64,000 nucleotides of DNA, taken from assembly GCA_020248985.1 (NCBI GenBank), contig JADCGL010000020.1, forward strand, positions 196,227 to 260,226. The letters run 5' to 3'. Below are positions 43,904 through 51,994 of this stretch, in pieces; within the stretch, counting starts at the first letter, position 1, and every line of letters begins with the position of its first letter. The notes below the pieces were generated by a model that was not told the origin of the DNA, did no database searches, and saw only the letters and a program-made list of their open reading frames with translations. Source of the DNA: Telmatospirillum sp. (GTDB taxonomy: Bacteria > Pseudomonadota > Alphaproteobacteria > CACIAM-22H2). Position numbers and translations under genes: made by a program.

Positions 43904-46054
43904 ATGGCCGAGTTTGCACGCCCCACGATCGCGGATTGGGAAAAACTGGCGCGCGCCGAGCTGAAAGGTGCGGGGCCCGAGACGCTTGCCTGGACCACGC
44001 CCGAAGGCATTGTCGTCAAACCGCTTTACACGAAAGACGACCTTGCAGCCCTTCCGCATTTGGACGGCATGCCCGGGATTGCACCGTATGTGCGGGGTCC
44101 GCGCGCCACGATGTATGCGAACCGCCCGTGGACGATCCGCCAATATGCCGGCTTCTCGACGGCGGAAGAATCGAACGCCTTCTACCGCAAAGCGCTGGCC
44201 GGCGGTCAGGCGGGCCTGTCGGTCGCTTTCGACCTCGCCACGCATCGCGGCTACGACAGTGACCATCCGCGCGTGACGGGCGATGTCGGCAAAGCCGGTG
44301 TCGCGATCGACTCAGTCGAAGACATGAAAATCCTGTTCGACGGCATCCCGCTCGACAAAATGTCGGTGTCGATGACGATGAATGGTGCCGTACTGCCCGT
44401 GCTCGCTGCTTTCGTCGTGGCGGGCGAAGAGCAGGGCGTGTCGGCCGACAAATTGTCGGGCACCATCCAGAACGACATTCTCAAAGAATTCATGGTGCGG
44501 AACACCTACATCTATCCGCCTGCACCCAGCATGCGCATCGTGGCCGACATCATCGCCCATACCGCGCGCCACATGCCCAAATTCAATTCGATCTCGATCA
44601 GCGGCTACCACATGCAGGAAGCCGGGGCGACGTGCGTGCAGGAACTCGCCTTCACGCTCGCCGACGGCCTCGAATATGTGCGCGCGGCTTTGTCGCAAGG
44701 GCTCGATGTCGATGCATTTGCGCCGCGCCTGTCGTTCTTCTTCGCGATCGGCATGAACTTCTTCATGGAGATCGCCAAGTTGCGTGCGGCCCGCCTGCTG
44801 TGGGCCGAACTCATGCAGCCTTTCGGCCCCAAAAAGGCCGACAGTCTCGCGCTGCGCACGCATTGCCAGACCTCCGGCGTGTCGCTGACCGAGCAAGACC
44901 CTTACAACAACGTGGTGCGCACCGCGTTCGAGGCGATGGCGGCAGCCCTCGGCGGCACGCAGTCGCTGCACACCAATTCGTTCGACGAAGCGCTGGCCCT
45001 GCCCACGCCGTTTTCCTCGCGCATCGCGCGCAATACGCAGCTCATCCTCCAGGAAGAGACCGGCATCGCCAACGTCGTCGATCCTTTGGCGGGCAGCTAC
45101 TATCTCGAGCATCTGACCGCCTCGATGGCGGACGAAGCGCGCAAACTGATCGGCGAGGTCGAAGCGCTCGGCGGCATGACCAAAGCCGTCGAGAGCGGCA
45201 TGCCGAAATTGCGCATCGAAGAGGCTGCCGCGCGCCGCCAGGCGCGCATCGACCGCGGCGAAGAGGTCGTGGTCGGCGTCAACAAATACAAGCTCGCCGA
45301 ACAGGAACCGATCGAGATTCGCGACATCGACAATACGGCCGTGCGCGAATCCCAGATCGCGCGCCTCAAAGCCGTGCGCGCCAAGCGCGATGCCGCAGCC
45401 GTCGAAAAGTCGCTCGCGGCCTTGGGAGAGGCCGCCAAGTCCGGCAAGGGCAATCTAATGGCGCTTGCGATTGACGCCATGCGCGCGCGCGCCACGGTCG
45501 GCGAAGTCTCCGACGCGCTCGAGAAAGTCTACACACGCCATCGCGCCACGATCCGCTCGGTCACCGGAATCTACGGCTCGGCCTACGACGGCGATGCGGG
45601 CTTTGCGCGCATCAAGGACGAAGTCGCGAATTTCGCGAAAGCCGAAGGACGGCGCCCGCGCATGCTCGTCGTGAAGCTCGGCCAGGACGGCCACGATCGC
45701 GGTGCCAAAGTGATTGCCACGGCCTTCGCCGATATCGGCTTCGACGTCGACGTGGGGCCGCTGTTCCAGACACCGGAAGAGGCCGCACGCCAAGCGATCG
45801 AAAACGACGTGCATGTGGTCGGCGTTTCTTCGCAGGCGGCGGGCCACAAAACGCTCGTACCCGCCCTCATCAACGCCCTCAAGGCGGCGCGCGCCGAGGA
45901 CATCATCGTGGTGTGCGGCGGTGTCATCCCGCCTCAGGATTACCAAGCCCTTCTCGATGCCGGCGTTGCCGCCATCTACGGCCCCGGCACCAACATTCCC
46001 CATGCTGCGGCAGAGGTCATCGGCCTCGTGCGGCGGCGCAAGAAAGCGGCGTAA
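43904..46054 (+). CDS. scpA: Methylmalonyl-CoA mutase
   Basis: A 716-residue single-polypeptide B12 enzyme that converts methylmalonyl-CoA to succinyl-CoA. The N-terminal TIM-barrel part has the CoA-channel motif [23 protein letters not shown]. The C-terminal cobalamin domain has the base-off D-G-H-D-R-G ligand motif (about residues 597-602) and [12 protein letters not shown]. The 175-bp gap upstream has a short inverted repeat GTTCC-N6-GGAAC (43830-43845) of unclear use. It precedes the giant coiled-coil gene by 6 bp but is functionally separate. Confidence 0.97.
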
Positions 46055-46060
46055 ATCGAC

Positions 46061-49000
46061 ATGAGCGACGACACTCAAGGCGGCCAACCGGGCAGCGGCC
46101 CGCGCCGCTTGCGCAGCCTCGAAGCCCCGACGGCCGAGGCGGTTCGCCCGGCCAACGATCTGGGCGCACCCGTCTACGAACCGCTGCCGCCGGCCGGCAA
46201 GCGCAGCTTTGCGGCCGCAACCGCGATCAGTGCGGCGTGGCTCGGGCTTGTCGCGTGGTACGCGCTGTCGCAAGTGGGGCTGGGTGCGTTCGAAATCATG
46301 CTGCCGCACGAGCTTGGCGCGTTCTTCGGCGGCGCTGCAATGCCGCTGCTGGTACTTTGGTTCGCGGTTTCGTATCTCGCGCGCGGGCGCGATCTCCTGC
46401 GCCATTCGCGCGCCCTCGAAGTGCGCTTGGCTGAGCTTGCCTATCCGGCCGAGCGTGCGGAAGCCAAACTGCGCACGATCGGCGACTCTTTGCGCGAGCA
46501 AGCGCTCGCCCTTGCCGACGCCTCGGACCAGGCCACGCGCCGCTTGATGGAAGCGCGCCAGGGCCTGTCCTCGCAGGCGGGCGAACTCACGACCGTGTCG
46601 GACCAGGCGGCAATGCGCGCCATGCAGGTGATGGCGGGCTTGCGCCGCCATGCCGACGGGCTCGAGCGCGTGACGGCGTTGCTGACGAGCCGCGTGCAGA
46701 TCGTCGAATCGGCCGTGCGCGAACAGGCCGACGCGTTGGCCGGCGCGTCCGACCGCGCTTTGTCGCAGTCGCGCGAAATCAACGCGACCTTGCGTGAGCA
46801 GATCGAAACCTTGGCCGCGACCAACGAGCGCACTTCGGCCAATGCAGGCGCAATTCGCGAATCGCTGCGCGAACAGTCGCAGGATCTGGCCGAGACGACC
46901 GAACGCGCACGCGCGCGTGCGGCCGAAATCCGCGCGGTGCTGGCGGACCAAGGCAGTGCGCTCACGGAATCGACCGAAGCCGCACTTAACCGCGCCCGCG
47001 AAGTGGGCGAATTGCTGCGCCGCCAGTCCGACGCGTTCGGCGATGCCGCCGAAATGGCCGAGGGCCGCGCGAGCACCGCCTCGGTCGAAATGGGTGCTGC
47101 GCGCCGCTCGGCCGAAGCCGCCAGCGACCATTTGGCCGACGCCGCCGAAAAACTCGTCACGATCGCGCGCGAGCTTGCCAAGCAGAGCGACGCCGCCCAG
47201 AACTCGCTGCGCGCCCAGACCGCCACTTTGGCGGAAGCGGCCGGCGATGCGCAGTCGCGCGTCGACACGGCCGGCGAAACCATCCGCGCGCGCACGACGG
47301 AAGTTGCCAGTGCCGCGATCCGAATGAACGAGGTTGCAACGAACCTTGCGGCCGAAACGCGCAACATGCAGGCGGCGATCGAGCGCATGACCGTGCGCAC
47401 CGAAGCCACGAGCGAATCCGTGCGCCGCCAGGGCCACGAGCTTGCGACGGCAGCCGACCAGGCGGTCGCGCGCGTGCGTGCGGCGGGCGAGACGTTCCAG
47501 TCGCAATCGCGCGAGCTTGCCGATGCGGCAGCGCAAGCGTTGGCGCGCATGGGCGGGGCGAGTGCGGGCTTTGCCGAGTCCGCGCGCGACATGGCCCAGC
47601 GCCTGCAGGATGCCGAAGCAAAAACTGCAGCGATCGGGCAAGACATCCGCCGCCACGGCAGCGAGCTCGTCGAGGCCGTGGATGCCGCCGGGCGCAGCGC
47701 GGCCGAAACAGGCGCCAAACTCGCGCGCGAAACCGAGACGATTCTGCGCGCGGCAGGCGCGCTGTCGGCCGAAGCGCTGGCAACCGAGGCCGCGTTGCAG
47801 GCCGAGACACGCCAAGTGGCCGAGGCCGCAATACGCGCCAAGGCGAGTGTGGATTCCGCCGGCATTGCGCTCAAGACGCGCGCTGAAGATCTCGATGCGG
47901 CCGCCCGCCGCACGGCCGAATCGCAGGTCGCCCTCGACGGGCTTGCGATGCGCGCACAAGAATCGCTCGACCGCGTTGCCGCGCGCGTCGATGCGTCCGG
48001 CGAAGTCGCGCGTCGCCGCGCCGAAGAGCTGCTCGTTGCAGCCGAGCAGGCGGCCCAGCGTGTGCGCGCGACCGGCGAAGGCGTGCGTGTGCAGACCCAA
48101 GATCTCACGCATTCGGCAGAATTGGCGCTCGCGCGCGCCGAGGAGCTCGGCGCTACGCTCAAGCGCCGTGCCGACGAAATCGACGGCACGTCGGAGCGCA
48201 CGACCCAGCGCCTCGACCAGCTTGCCGATCATGTGCGCGACCAAACGCAAGTGCTTGCCGAGGCGGCCGGCGACGCCGCCCAGAAGCTCACGCTTTCCGG
48301 CGAACAGGTGCGCCTCAAGACCGAAGCGATCGACGCCACGGCCGACGCCGCCATGGCGCGCCTGGGCGATGCGGGGGCCACGATCGAACGGCGTACGAAG
48401 GAACTCGACGCCGCCGCCCAGCTCGCGGCCCAAAAGCTCGACGACAGCGCCGAGCGACTGCGCGCGCGCACGCTCGAAGGCGAAGCCAACGTCGCCGCTG
48501 CGACCCAGCGCCTCGATACGAGTGCGCAAGCCTTGGTTCAGGATTCGCGCGAGGTCGCCGTCGCACTCGACCGCACGTCGGCGCGTATCGAAGCAACCGG
48601 CGAGGTCGTACGACGCGAAGCGTCCCAACTCGAACTCGGTGCCGAACAGGCGGCCGCGCGCGTGCGCGCCACCGGCGAAAACTTCCGCAGCGAGGCGCAA
48701 AGCATGGTGCGCGCCGCCGAGGCCGGCATGGCCGAGGCCGAGGCCTACGCCGAAACGCTCAAACACCGCGCCGAAGACATCGCATCGACGGCTGCGCGCG
48801 CTGGCGAACGGCTCGAAGCACTGCACGGCGACCTGCGCGCGCAGGCTGGATCGTTGGGGGAAACGGCCGACTCCGTCGCAATCCAGCTCGACCGTGCCGG
48901 CGAAACGCTGCGTCTCAAGACTCTCGCGATCGAAGCGACTGGCGATGCGGCACGCAATCGCATCGGCGAAGCCGCCGAGGATGTGGCGCGCAACGCCAAA

Positions 49001-51994
49001 GATCTCGACGCGACCACCCATCAGACGGCTGCCCGTCTGCGCGATGCGGCCGACCAGCTGCGCGCGCGCGCGCAGGAGGCCGACGCAAATGTCGCCGCCG
49101 CCGCCCAACGACTCGATCTCACGGCAAGCCTGCTTGCCAAGGACGCGGCCGATGTCGCCCAAGCGGTCGACAATGCTGCTGCGCGCATGGAAGCCAGTGG
49201 CGACGTGGCCCGCCGCGAGAACGACCAGCTCGTTCTGGCCGCGGACCAATCGGCGGCACGCATCCGCGCGACGAGCGAGGCGTTCCGGACCGAGACGAAT
49301 GGTCTGGTGCGCGCGGCCGAAACCGGCATTGCGCAGGCCCATCTCTTCGATGAAACGCTGAAGCGCAGCACCGACGAGCTCGGTCTGCTCGCGGCGCGCA
49401 CGGGCACACAGCTCGACGCGCTGCACACAGCCCTCAAGAACCAGACTGTGGAGCTCGGCGACGTTGCGACCGAAAAGGCCGTTGTGCTCGAGCAGGCGGC
49501 CGACTTGCTGCGCGAGCGCACCGCTGCGCTTGGTACCGAAGCCGACCGCACGCGCGGCAGTGTGGACACCGCGCGCGACGAGATCGCGCGCAGCGCCAAA
49601 GATCTCGACGCGACGGCCCACCAGGCGCTGCTGCGCCTTCGCGAAGCCGCCGACCAGTTGCGCCAGCGCACGGCGGAAGCCGAAGCCAACGTCGCCTCGG
49701 CGACGCAGCGCCTCGATGCGACGGCTGTTACGCTGTCGCGCGATGCCGGCGAGACAAGTGCCGCCGTCGACCGCGCCAGCGCGCGCATGGCCGCCAGCGG
49801 CGATGTCGCACGGCGCGAGAACGAACAGCTCGTGCTGGCTGCCGACCAGTCGGCTGCGCGCGTTCGGCATGCGGGCGAGACGTTCCGCAGCGAAACGCAG
49901 GCGCTCGTGCACGCGGCCGAAACCGGCCTCGAGCGTGCCGGCCTGCTTGAAACCGCGATCGCCCAGCGTGCGCTCGAAACCAATGCCGCAGCCGACCGCG
50001 CCTTGGCGCGTCTCGACGAGGCGGGCGACGCGCTGCGCAAGCGCGGCCTGGACGTCGAAGAGACGGCCGGCACGTCTGTCGCCGCGATCGGCACAGCCGG
50101 CAACGCGCTGCGCCGCGAGACCGAAGCGCTGCAGAACGCGGCGGCCGTTTCGAGTGCGCGGATCGACGAAACGGCAGCTTTGCTCGGCCAGCGTTCGACC
50201 GAGCTCGCCTCCATCGCAACGCAGGCAGGCCAGCGCCTCAAGGAATCGTCCGAAAGCCTGCGTGCGCGTACGGCCGAGCTCGAAGGGGCCGCAGACCGTT
50301 CGGCAACGCGCGTGGGGGCAATCGACGCCGGCCTGCGCGACCAAACCTTGCTGCTGCTCAAGACGATGGAACAGGTCTCGGGTCGCGCCAACGACGTCGG
50401 CGCCGTGCTCGAAAGCCAGGTTGCGGCCGTCGCGCGCGCGTCGGACGACGCGATGGCGCGGCTGCGCGCCTCGTCCGATCTGTTCCGCGACCGTGCCGGC
50501 GAAATGCAGACCTTGTCGCAGTCGACGACTGAAAAGGTCGCGGCGACGGGGGCCGAGACCGAACGCCGCCTGCAAGCGCTAGCGACGCAGGCCGTCGAAG
50601 CGGTCGGGCGCCTCGAAGAGGGTGGGGAGACGTTCCGCAACCGCCTCAACGACATGAACCGTGCCGCCGCTGGCGTGGGCGGGCTCATGGCCGAGGCGAG
50701 CGAGAATTTCCGCCGCCACACGGGCGATCTGCAGATCGCGGTCGACCAGGCGACGGCGCGCGTGGCGCAAGTGGGCCAGGCGCTGCGCGAGCGCACGGTC
50801 GATCTGGGCGGGGCGGCCGATGCGGCCGAAGCGCGCCTGTCGATGGTCGCCGAATTGCTGCGCGGCAACGCAAGCGGCCTTGCCGACACGGCCGACCGTT
50901 CGGCGATCAAGCTTGATGCGCTCGGCGAAGCGCTGGTGCGGCGTGCGGCCGAATTGTCGGCAATGTCGGACGGCACGGCAGCGCGCCTCTCGACGGTCGA
51001 TCAGGCCTTGGGCGAACAGCGCGAGACACTCGTGCGCACGCTCGAAACGCTAGGTGCGCGCGCAAGCGAGCTCGGCCAGGTGCTACGCGGCCAGGCCGAT
51101 CATCTCAATGGTGTGGTTTCGGAAGCGGGCGAGCGCCTATCGGAAATCGGCGCGCAGTTCGACCTGCAGGCGCGCGAAGCGGCCGATGCCGCGACGGTCG
51201 CAAGCCAGCGCATCGGCGAAACCGGCCAGTCGCTGCGCCGCCGCTCGGACGAGTTGTCGGCGGCCGCCCAGGAAGGCGGCGTGCGCCTCGAAGCGACGGC
51301 CGAAAGCTTCCGTCGCCGCGCCGAAGAAGTTATGGCGGCCGTGGGCCAAGCGGCCGCGCGCATCGCGTCGGTCGGCGAAAGCTTCGCCCGCCAATCGCGC
51401 GACATGGGGCTTGCGATGGATGCGGCCGAGCGGCGCATAGCGGAAGCCGAGCGCCTGCTGGCGCTGCAGAGCGAGACGCTCGATGTCGCGGCCGGCAAGG
51501 TCACGCGCGAAGCAAGCGAGGCGACCGACGCGTTCCGCCGCCAAGCCGACGATCTGGCTGCCGCCGCTGCCGCCGCCAACGATGCGCAGCGCCAGCTCAC
51601 CTCGAGCGAGTTCGAGGCCAAGCGCGGCCGCTTCCTGCGCGCCTCGCGTCTGGTCGTCGAGGGGCTCAACTCGCTGTCCATCGACCTTGCGCGCACGCTC
51701 GATCCGTCGGTTACGGACCGCGTGCTCAAGGAGTTCTTGGGCGGCGACCGCGGCGTGTTCGTGCGCCGCTTGCTGCGCCTCAATTGGGGCGAAACGGGCC
51801 GCCTCGTGCAGAAGCGCTACGGCGACGACGCGGAGTTCCGACGCTACGTCACAGACTATCTCACGCAGTACGACCGCTTGCTGGCCGATGCGCGCGAGGC
51901 CGATCCCGAAAACGTGCTGGTATCGACCTTCCTGTCGGCGGACGTGGGCAAGCTCTACATGACGCTTGCTTCGATCGTGGGCTGGAAGAAGTAG
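46061..51994 (+). CDS. Giant membrane-anchored coiled-coil protein with 200-residue repeats
   Basis: A 1,977-residue protein. A proline/glycine-rich cytoplasmic N-terminus (about 1-45), two membrane helices (about 48-75 and 87-109), then nearly 1,700 residues of alanine-, glutamate- and arginine-rich coiled coil or apolipoprotein-like helix, and a globular C-terminal region of about 125 residues (from S-S-E-F-E-A-K-R-G-R-F-L-R) ending G-W-K-K. In the middle, residues 647-1446 form four in-register 200-residue repeats. Size, two N-terminal membrane helices and helical repeats recall polar scaffold proteins of alphaproteobacteria such as TipN and the growth-pole-ring protein; that likeness is inferred from architecture only. 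No key catalytic motif seen. Confidence 0.85.
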   Translation: MSDDTQGGQPGSGPRRLRSLEAPTAEAVRPANDLGAPVYEPLPPAGKRSFAAATAISAAWLGLVAWYALSQVGLGAFEIMLPHELGAFFGGAAMPLLVLWFAVSYLARGRDLLRHSRALEVRLAELAYPAERAEAKLRTIGDSLREQALALADASDQATRRLMEARQGLSSQAGELTTVSDQAAMRAMQVMAGLRRHADGLERVTALLTSRVQIVESAVREQADALAGASDRALSQSREINATLREQIETLAATNERTSANAGAIRESLREQSQDLAETTERARARAAEIRAVLADQGSALTESTEAALNRAREVGELLRRQSDAFGDAAEMAEGRASTASVEMGAARRSAEAASDHLADAAEKLVTIARELAKQSDAAQNSLRAQTATLAEAAGDAQSRVDTAGETIRARTTEVASAAIRMNEVATNLAAETRNMQAAIERMTVRTEATSESVRRQGHELATAADQAVARVRAAGETFQSQSRELADAAAQALARMGGASAGFAESARDMAQRLQDAEAKTAAIGQDIRRHGSELVEAVDAAGRSAAETGAKLARETETILRAAGALSAEALATEAALQAETRQVAEAAIRAKASVDSAGIALKTRAEDLDAAARRTAESQVALDGLAMRAQESLDRVAARVDASGEVARRRAEELLVAAEQAAQRVRATGEGVRVQTQDLTHSAELALARAEELGATLKRRADEIDGTSERTTQRLDQLADHVRDQTQVLAEAAGDAAQKLTLSGEQVRLKTEAIDATADAAMARLGDAGATIERRTKELDAAAQLAAQKLDDSAERLRARTLEGEANVAAATQRLDTSAQALVQDSREVAVALDRTSARIEATGEVVRREASQLELGAEQAAARVRATGENFRSEAQSMVRAAEAGMAEAEAYAETLKHRAEDIASTAARAGERLEALHGDLRAQAGSLGETADSVAIQLDRAGETLRLKTLAIEATGDAARNRIGEAAEDVARNAKDLDATTHQTAARLRDAADQLRARAQEADANVAAAAQRLDLTASLLAKDAADVAQAVDNAAARMEASGDVARRENDQLVLAADQSAARIRATSEAFRTETNGLVRAAETGIAQAHLFDETLKRSTDELGLLAARTGTQLDALHTALKNQTVELGDVATEKAVVLEQAADLLRERTAALGTEADRTRGSVDTARDEIARSAKDLDATAHQALLRLREAADQLRQRTAEAEANVASATQRLDATAVTLSRDAGETSAAVDRASARMAASGDVARRENEQLVLAADQSAARVRHAGETFRSETQALVHAAETGLERAGLLETAIAQRALETNAAADRALARLDEAGDALRKRGLDVEETAGTSVAAIGTAGNALRRETEALQNAAAVSSARIDETAALLGQRSTELASIATQAGQRLKESSESLRARTAELEGAADRSATRVGAIDAGLRDQTLLLLKTMEQVSGRANDVGAVLESQVAAVARASDDAMARLRASSDLFRDRAGEMQTLSQSTTEKVAATGAETERRLQALATQAVEAVGRLEEGGETFRNRLNDMNRAAAGVGGLMAEASENFRRHTGDLQIAVDQATARVAQVGQALRERTVDLGGAADAAEARLSMVAELLRGNASGLADTADRSAIKLDALGEALVRRAAELSAMSDGTAARLSTVDQALGEQRETLVRTLETLGARASELGQVLRGQADHLNGVVSEAGERLSEIGAQFDLQAREAADAATVASQRIGETGQSLRRRSDELSAAAQEGGVRLEATAESFRRRAEEVMAAVGQAAARIASVGESFARQSRDMGLAMDAAERRIAEAERLLALQSETLDVAAGKVTREASEATDAFRRQADDLAAAAAAANDAQRQLTSSEFEAKRGRFLRASRLVVEGLNSLSIDLARTLDPSVTDRVLKEFLGGDRGVFVRRLLRLNWGETGRLVQKRYGDDAEFRRYVTDYLTQYDRLLADAREADPENVLVSTFLSADVGKLYMTLASIVGWKK
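47999..50500 (+). repeat. In-frame 600-bp tandem repeats inside the coiled-coil gene
   Basis: The motif G-[DE]-V-[AV]-R-R recurs at 47999, 48599, 49199 and 49799, exactly 600 bp apart, and a fifth degenerate copy starts at 50399. The repeat E/D-A-N-V-A-x-A-x-Q-R-L-D also recurs at 48482, 49082 and 49682. Spacing is free of insertions or deletions. The first three copies match over most of their length; the fourth matches mainly in its first 55 residues. A more distant copy at about 47411 is 588 bp before the first, so the register is lost there. Confidence 0.85.

Follow-up and report, generated by a model that had tools for sequence, protein, structure and literature searches.

TipN of Caulobacter crescentus (~880 aa) combines two membrane helices with a coiled coil and is found at the new pole. 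GPR, the growth-pole-ring protein of Agrobacterium tumefaciens, is 42% identical to its S. meliloti homologue RgsE, which has two membrane helices and a reported length of 2,089 aa (PMC7327166). When its last 332 residues are removed, GPR still forms polar paired foci but does not restore cell shape, and C-terminal deletions of GPR abolish function while leaving ring formation intact (PMC8262873). Distant homologues of RgsE have already been noted in Rhodospirillales, from which the other Rgs proteins are reported to be absent (PMC7327166).

Here we analyse a gene in a stretch of 64,000 nucleotides (the window), the product of which is related to RgsE at both termini and carries between them a rod made of 25-residue units. 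Comparison with relatives points to conservation of the helical phase of this rod, not of its total length.

Gene neighbourhood and protein layout

The first-pass annotation of the window had read positions 46061-51994 as a 1,977-residue membrane coiled coil, and this description holds: the open reading frame is real, encodes two TM helices and a coil, and is conserved in relatives. Its features are as follows.

46061..51994, + strand: coil gene, complete, encoding a membrane-anchored coiled-coil protein of 1,977 aa (from the ORF and conserved gene order)
46208..46270, + strand: TM helix 1, residues ~50-70 (placed by eye from hydropathy and congener alignment, +/- a few residues)
46319..46378, + strand: TM helix 2, residues ~87-106 (placed by eye from hydropathy and congener alignment)
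46403..51595, + strand: coiled coil, residues 115-1845 (~1,730 residues), 69 units of 25 residues
51596..51991, + strand: C-terminal helical domain (C-domain), residues 1846-1977, a hallmark of the family that RgsE also carries

A 48-residue tail precedes the TM helices, and the coil is predicted to be cytoplasmic because basic residues follow TM helix 2 (positive-inside rule). The coil contains a single proline across residues 115-1845. In an AlphaFold2 model of residues 1-320 (monomer, single sequence), residues 93-319 form two near-continuous helices with pLDDT values up to 93, so that for the first 320 residues the predicted state is helical through residue 319 rather than disordered. The C-domain is likewise predicted to be helical and to continue from the coil, with a mean pLDDT of 91.6. 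The gene is single copy, as a profile search returns one C-domain match in the whole genome. In the close relative L021, the coil protein has the same length and is 97% identical, with a dN/dS of 0.046 over the coil; overall, dN/dS is 0.05-0.14 for the coil and 0-0.03 for the C-domain, a sign of strong purifying selection that is tighter still on the C-domain. An antisense ORF (45455-50575, − strand, 1,706 aa) was considered and rejected, since it probably just mirrors the composition of the GC-rich repeat and is no gene.

A methylmalonyl-CoA-mutase-type gene (window 43904-46061) ends 6 bp upstream of the coil gene, which is flanked on its other side by NUDIX and secA genes in convergent orientation. 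The order mutase - coil - secA is conserved: among related loci, 25 have the mutase next to the coil gene and 17 have secA next to it, and this position is therefore ancestral within this part of Rhodospirillales. The adjacency of mutase and coil reaches distant related loci too. In Rhizobiaceae and Sphingomonadales, a small Hpt-domain gene in divergent orientation lies upstream of the coil gene (L048:3102-3470, L050:3661-3954, L039, L041, L042 and the Sphingomonadales loci), and none was seen next to the coil gene in loci of Tagaea, the genus of the window. A phosphorelay link of such Hpt genes to the coil protein is possible.

The rod is built from a 25-residue unit

Self-comparison of the coil gives its strongest offsets at 200, 25, 75, 50, 125, 150, 400, 100 and 175 residues, and because every strong offset is a multiple of 25, the basic repeat unit is 25 residues (75 bp). 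A Viterbi register map places 69 such units with the consensus aGEaLRRQAEELAAAADRAAARLDA, in which unit positions 0, 4, 8, 11, 15, 18 and 22 (counted from 0) form the hydrophobic core. Each unit makes 7 turns at 3.571 residues per turn and equals heptad plus heptad plus hendecad. In line with this, the hydrophobic signal of the coil as a whole is most coherent at 3.57 residues per turn, where its normalised power is 97, compared with a shuffle maximum of 8.6. The same register map locates the interruptions of the pattern.

47078..47197, + strand: phase break of -11 residues, ~residues 340-379
47321..47338, + strand: phase break of -4 residues, ~residues 421-426
47906..47923, + strand: phase break of -4 residues, ~residues 616-621
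47921..51595, + strand: 49 consecutive 25-residue units with no register break, residues 621-1845

The claim of a register kept without a single indel thus stands over residues 621-1845 and fails for the entire coil, because three phase breaks (-11, -4 and -4) lie upstream of residue 621.

The first-pass annotation had also proposed an exact 200-residue register marked by recurring anchor motifs. Four anchors, at 47999, 48599, 49199 and 49799 (residues 647, 847, 1047 and 1247), are in frame and exactly 200 residues apart, reading GEVARRR, GEVVRRE, GDVARRE and GDVARRE in order. The fifth, at 50399, had been called degenerate; it reads GAVLESQ, scores at background level and is not recognisable as a copy. 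Self-identity at offset 200 is 0.285, compared with 0.111 in shuffles, and drops to 0.112 at offset 199 and 0.099 at offset 201. Units at a distance of eight are 0.368 identical, whereas column-permuted units give 0.232 +/- 0.011 (z = 12.7). This signal maps to the following blocks.

47996..48595, + strand: copy 1 of the 200-residue block, residues 646-845 (47% identity with copy 2)
48596..49195, + strand: copy 2 of the 200-residue block, residues 846-1045 (50% identity with copy 3)
49196..49795, + strand: 200-residue block copy 3, residues 1046-1245, an extra copy absent in the 1,779-aa congeners
49796..49945, + strand: incomplete copy 4, residues 1246-1295, consisting of two units with 88% and 56% identity to copy 3

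Beyond residue 1296, identity at offset 200 is near the background of the 25-residue units (~22%), and the copies are therefore confined to residues 646-1245 plus the partial copy. At the DNA level the block copies are 50-60% identical, and the 25-residue units far less so. The 200-residue register consists of an eight-unit block duplicated in tandem; its spacing is the footprint of duplication and not a helical repeat.

Eight full-length congeners, 67-98% identical, align over the coil without gaps save for one block of exactly 200 residues, which separates four proteins of ~1,975 aa (1,977 in the window) from four of 1,779 aa. The expectation that absolute length is conserved among close relatives is contradicted by this block. 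In a tree of the blocks, the copies starting at residues 846 and 1046 of the long lineage are sisters, and the 846 block of the short lineage falls outside them (support 0.96). Because of this branching, copy 3 is more likely a lineage-specific duplication than a segment lost from the short lineage.

Indels in the coil preserve helical phase

Coil indels were surveyed in 19 pairs of relatives from several clades that are 66-90% identical over a total of 22,468 aligned coil residues. The gaps found are of 22, 22 and 54 residues, plus the 200-residue block in two pairs; since the aligner splits the latter (43+157 and 68+132), seven aligner gaps correspond to five pairwise differences after joining. 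All are whole-turn lengths, and no phase-breaking indel occurs within the coil in any of the 19 pairs. The neighbouring genes at the same loci, at 51-84% mean identity, contain 118 internal gaps in 45,160 residues (2.6 per 1,000), a rate that predicts 58.6 indels in the coil, so that the frequency of indels in the coil is roughly a tenth of that in the neighbours. In the N-terminal tails of these coil proteins, 24 gaps fall within 1,106 residues. The contrast is large, and the corresponding Poisson value of 2e-17 is indicative only, because the pairs are not independent. Further pairs add, for a clade with a 29-residue unit, gaps of 29 and 116 (4 x 29), for another clade 44, and for yet another 25 and 29; some deeper pairs show -4 shifts like those inside the window protein. 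The gap survey and the neighbour-gene rate show that the coil tolerates whole-turn indels, that others are rare, and that phase is conserved, not total length. The suggestion that the helical period is under constraint is borne out by these figures, coil indels being both scarce and phase-preserving.

Two other explanations bear on this pattern. Plain tandem-repeat mutation, in which unequal recombination inserts or removes whole units without structural selection on register, would account for the 200-residue block, which is truly tandem-duplicated with one lineage-specific copy. However, about 59 random indels would be expected in the 19 pairs at the neighbour rate and not one phase-breaking indel is seen; recombination should also be rare between block copies of 50-60% DNA identity and units of far lower identity, and dN/dS is low. 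We give this explanation little credence. A molecular ruler was raised at the outset as one example of a constraint on the helical period; the absolute coil length (~257 nm) would then define a distance in the cell, for instance the diameter of a ring or how far the protein reaches from the membrane towards a target. A ruler would agree with congeners at 67-97% identity that carry no coil indel apart from one block, and with four Magnetovibrio-type genomes that keep 1,133 coil residues with no internal gap at 70-75% identity. Yet the congeners differ by 200 residues (~30 nm), sister pairs outside the window genus differ by 22, 44, 54 or 145 coil residues, and the coil spans ~330 to 1,900 residues across the family. 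A coil length fixed by a ruler is contradicted by these differences, and the ruler as an explanation seems rather improbable. The depletion of non-unit indels could itself in part reflect plain continuity of the helix core in a dimer, with no higher-order lateral register.

Relationship to GPR/RgsE and the C-terminal domain

Kinship with the growth-pole-ring protein had been proposed from architecture only; it is now backed by sequence at the C-domain and the membrane hairpin, via RgsE. Specifically, a 2,089-aa CDS of S. meliloti annotated as 'kinesin' shares 38% identity with the C-domain over 115 aa (E 1e-18), and we infer this CDS to be RgsE because species, exact length, PF01442 content and architecture agree. 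Additionally, the N-terminal hairpin and juxtamembrane region align with RgsE over 211 columns (hhalign probability 97, E 9e-11). These matches show that the window protein and RgsE are homologous at both termini.

On the other hand, the apolipoprotein family PF01442, for which RgsE as a positive control scores E 8e-77, has no match in the window protein and none genome-wide at E <= 0.001, and membership of the apolipoprotein family or of GPR sensu stricto was rejected on this ground. The window protein has the N-terminal TM pair, a continuous helix of ~1,700 residues and the conserved C-domain that define the superfamily broadly. Given this difference in apolipoprotein repeats, the window protein is best filed in the broad GPR/RgsE superfamily and outside GPR sensu stricto. 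Its function may have diverged from that of RgsE, as the repeat type differs (25 versus 11/22 residues, and no PF01442). The relationship to RgsE is itself not new; in the limited literature covered, we found no published description of a phase-locked rod of 25-residue units, of clade-specific units or of a class-wide domain profile.

Database names suggest a further identity, an SMC-like or kinesin-like motor: the window protein has a weak NCBIfam SMC match (E 0.0014; 16.5 bits, where the cut-off is 567), and the RgsE record is named 'kinesin'. The SMC match is confined to the coil, however, and Pfam and NCBIfam find no ATPase or motor domain, which makes a motor almost certainly the wrong reading.

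The C-domain (51596-51991) has no Pfam or NCBIfam model. Its profile yields only chance matches among PDB sequences (E > 0.06), its structure retrieves nothing below E 0.2 with Foldseek, and the best VIA-align Z is 6.4, as helical bundles with no relationship would be expected to give, so that no fold was assigned. The profile detects the domain in 109 of the 289 alphaproteobacterial genomes sampled, nearly always in one copy. The open frames bearing it span ~300 to 2,750 aa, and most complete members share the N-terminal membrane hairpin. A scan of the contig collection with a four-row C-domain alignment kept 80 loci, none from Caulobacter; among plasmid records, matches occur in Rhizobiaceae and Sphingomonas only. 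The repeat unit is clade-specific, namely 25 residues in most clades, 29 (L060, L067, L074, L079), 47 (L070), 69 with 11 (L072, L073, L088, L089, L093), and 11/22 in Rhizobiaceae. Every unit length is a sum of heptads and hendecads, and the fitted periods lie within 3.56-3.67 residues per turn.

Several side observations concern individual records. A second, more divergent C-domain copy on a separate frame (G012:C74 and C380, G013:C68, G017:C29, G305:C6) shows that a few genomes carry paralogues of the domain. CP090106.1 (pSymB label, 3.7 Mb) and NZ_CP069303.1 (plasmid unnamed1, 4.6 Mb), the sources of L048 and L049, resemble mislabelled chromosomes; in the former, folP and petA lie beside the RgsE-type gene, the product of which is again named 'kinesin'. 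An alphaproteobacterial member of the family is encoded in L069 (CP051228.1), a record that bears the title Mesoflavibacter sp. isolate ih5, which suggests that this genome is misassigned.

Proposed function of the coil protein

Taken together, the window protein is probably an inner-membrane-anchored cytoplasmic scaffold that represents an orthologous branch of the GPR/RgsE superfamily. The genome encodes MreB (E 4e-152) and PopZ. MreB is the scaffold of lateral elongation and is not known from Rhizobiales. A strict GPR-type organiser, the polar ring of which would direct cell-wall synthesis to one pole, would fit the homology to RgsE at both ends and the shared architecture; against it stand the MreB gene, the reported absence of other Rgs proteins from Rhodospirillales (PMC7327166) and the lack of apolipoprotein-type repeats in the window protein, and such a role appears unlikely. 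Because the genome keeps MreB and PopZ, we consider with moderate confidence that a TipN-like role in polarity or pole organisation is likelier than obligate polar growth. With PopZ encoded, a PopZ/ParA pathway may exist in the host.

We propose that chains of this scaffold would associate laterally in register through the continuous L/A stripe of the coil to form rods or a rope. At 3.7 nm per unit and 30 nm per 200-residue block, these would reach at most ~257 nm when the coil is fully extended. An indel other than a whole number of turns would rotate all downstream sequence out of register and be purged by selection, whereas extra whole units would merely lengthen the rod. The hairpin would tether the rod to the inner membrane at the pole or growth zone, and the C-domain would recruit or position partners. 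That truncated GPR still forms foci but fails in shape suggests a division of labour in which the rod assembles the structure and the C-domain acts as the effector.

More tentatively, GPR/RgsE, the window protein and perhaps TipN might belong to one class-wide family of polar scaffolds, in which hairpin and C-domain are kept, each clade reassembles the rod from an integer-turn unit of its own (25, 29, 47 or 11/22), and phase, not length, is selected for lateral packing into a supramolecular structure. The findings extend the rhizobial polar-growth scaffold to MreB-bearing alphaproteobacteria and bring out a conserved C-domain for which Pfam has no model. The coils of more than 1,000 residues constitute a natural experiment in which only whole-turn indels survive, and the hypothesis of in-register packing is therefore directly testable. 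These comparisons also suggest that the apolipoprotein label of GPR describes a repeat type rather than a shared family function.

Comparison with known systems

Like the arms of SMC proteins, the window protein forms a long coiled coil, but it has neither ATPase head nor hinge. With the repeats of apolipoproteins A-I, A-IV and E and with 11-residue repeat helices it shares a design in which short repeats of a whole number of turns build up long amphipathic helices; distinct from the apolipoprotein repeats, its unit is 25 residues long, has a coiled-coil core and does not match PF01442. Sphingomonad members of the family have TipN-like sizes (764-904 aa). The closest counterparts are RgsE (2,089 aa) and GPR (2,115 aa). 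RgsE has 11/22-residue repeats at 3.655 residues per turn, whereas the window protein has 25-residue repeats at 3.571; RgsE carries a Pro-rich linker before the C-domain that the window protein lacks; and the RgsE type lies beside an Hpt gene, whereas the window gene lies beside mutase and secA genes. All the same, the window protein resembles both in its two N-terminal TM helices, its very long helix, predicted to be cytoplasmic, and a homologous C-domain.
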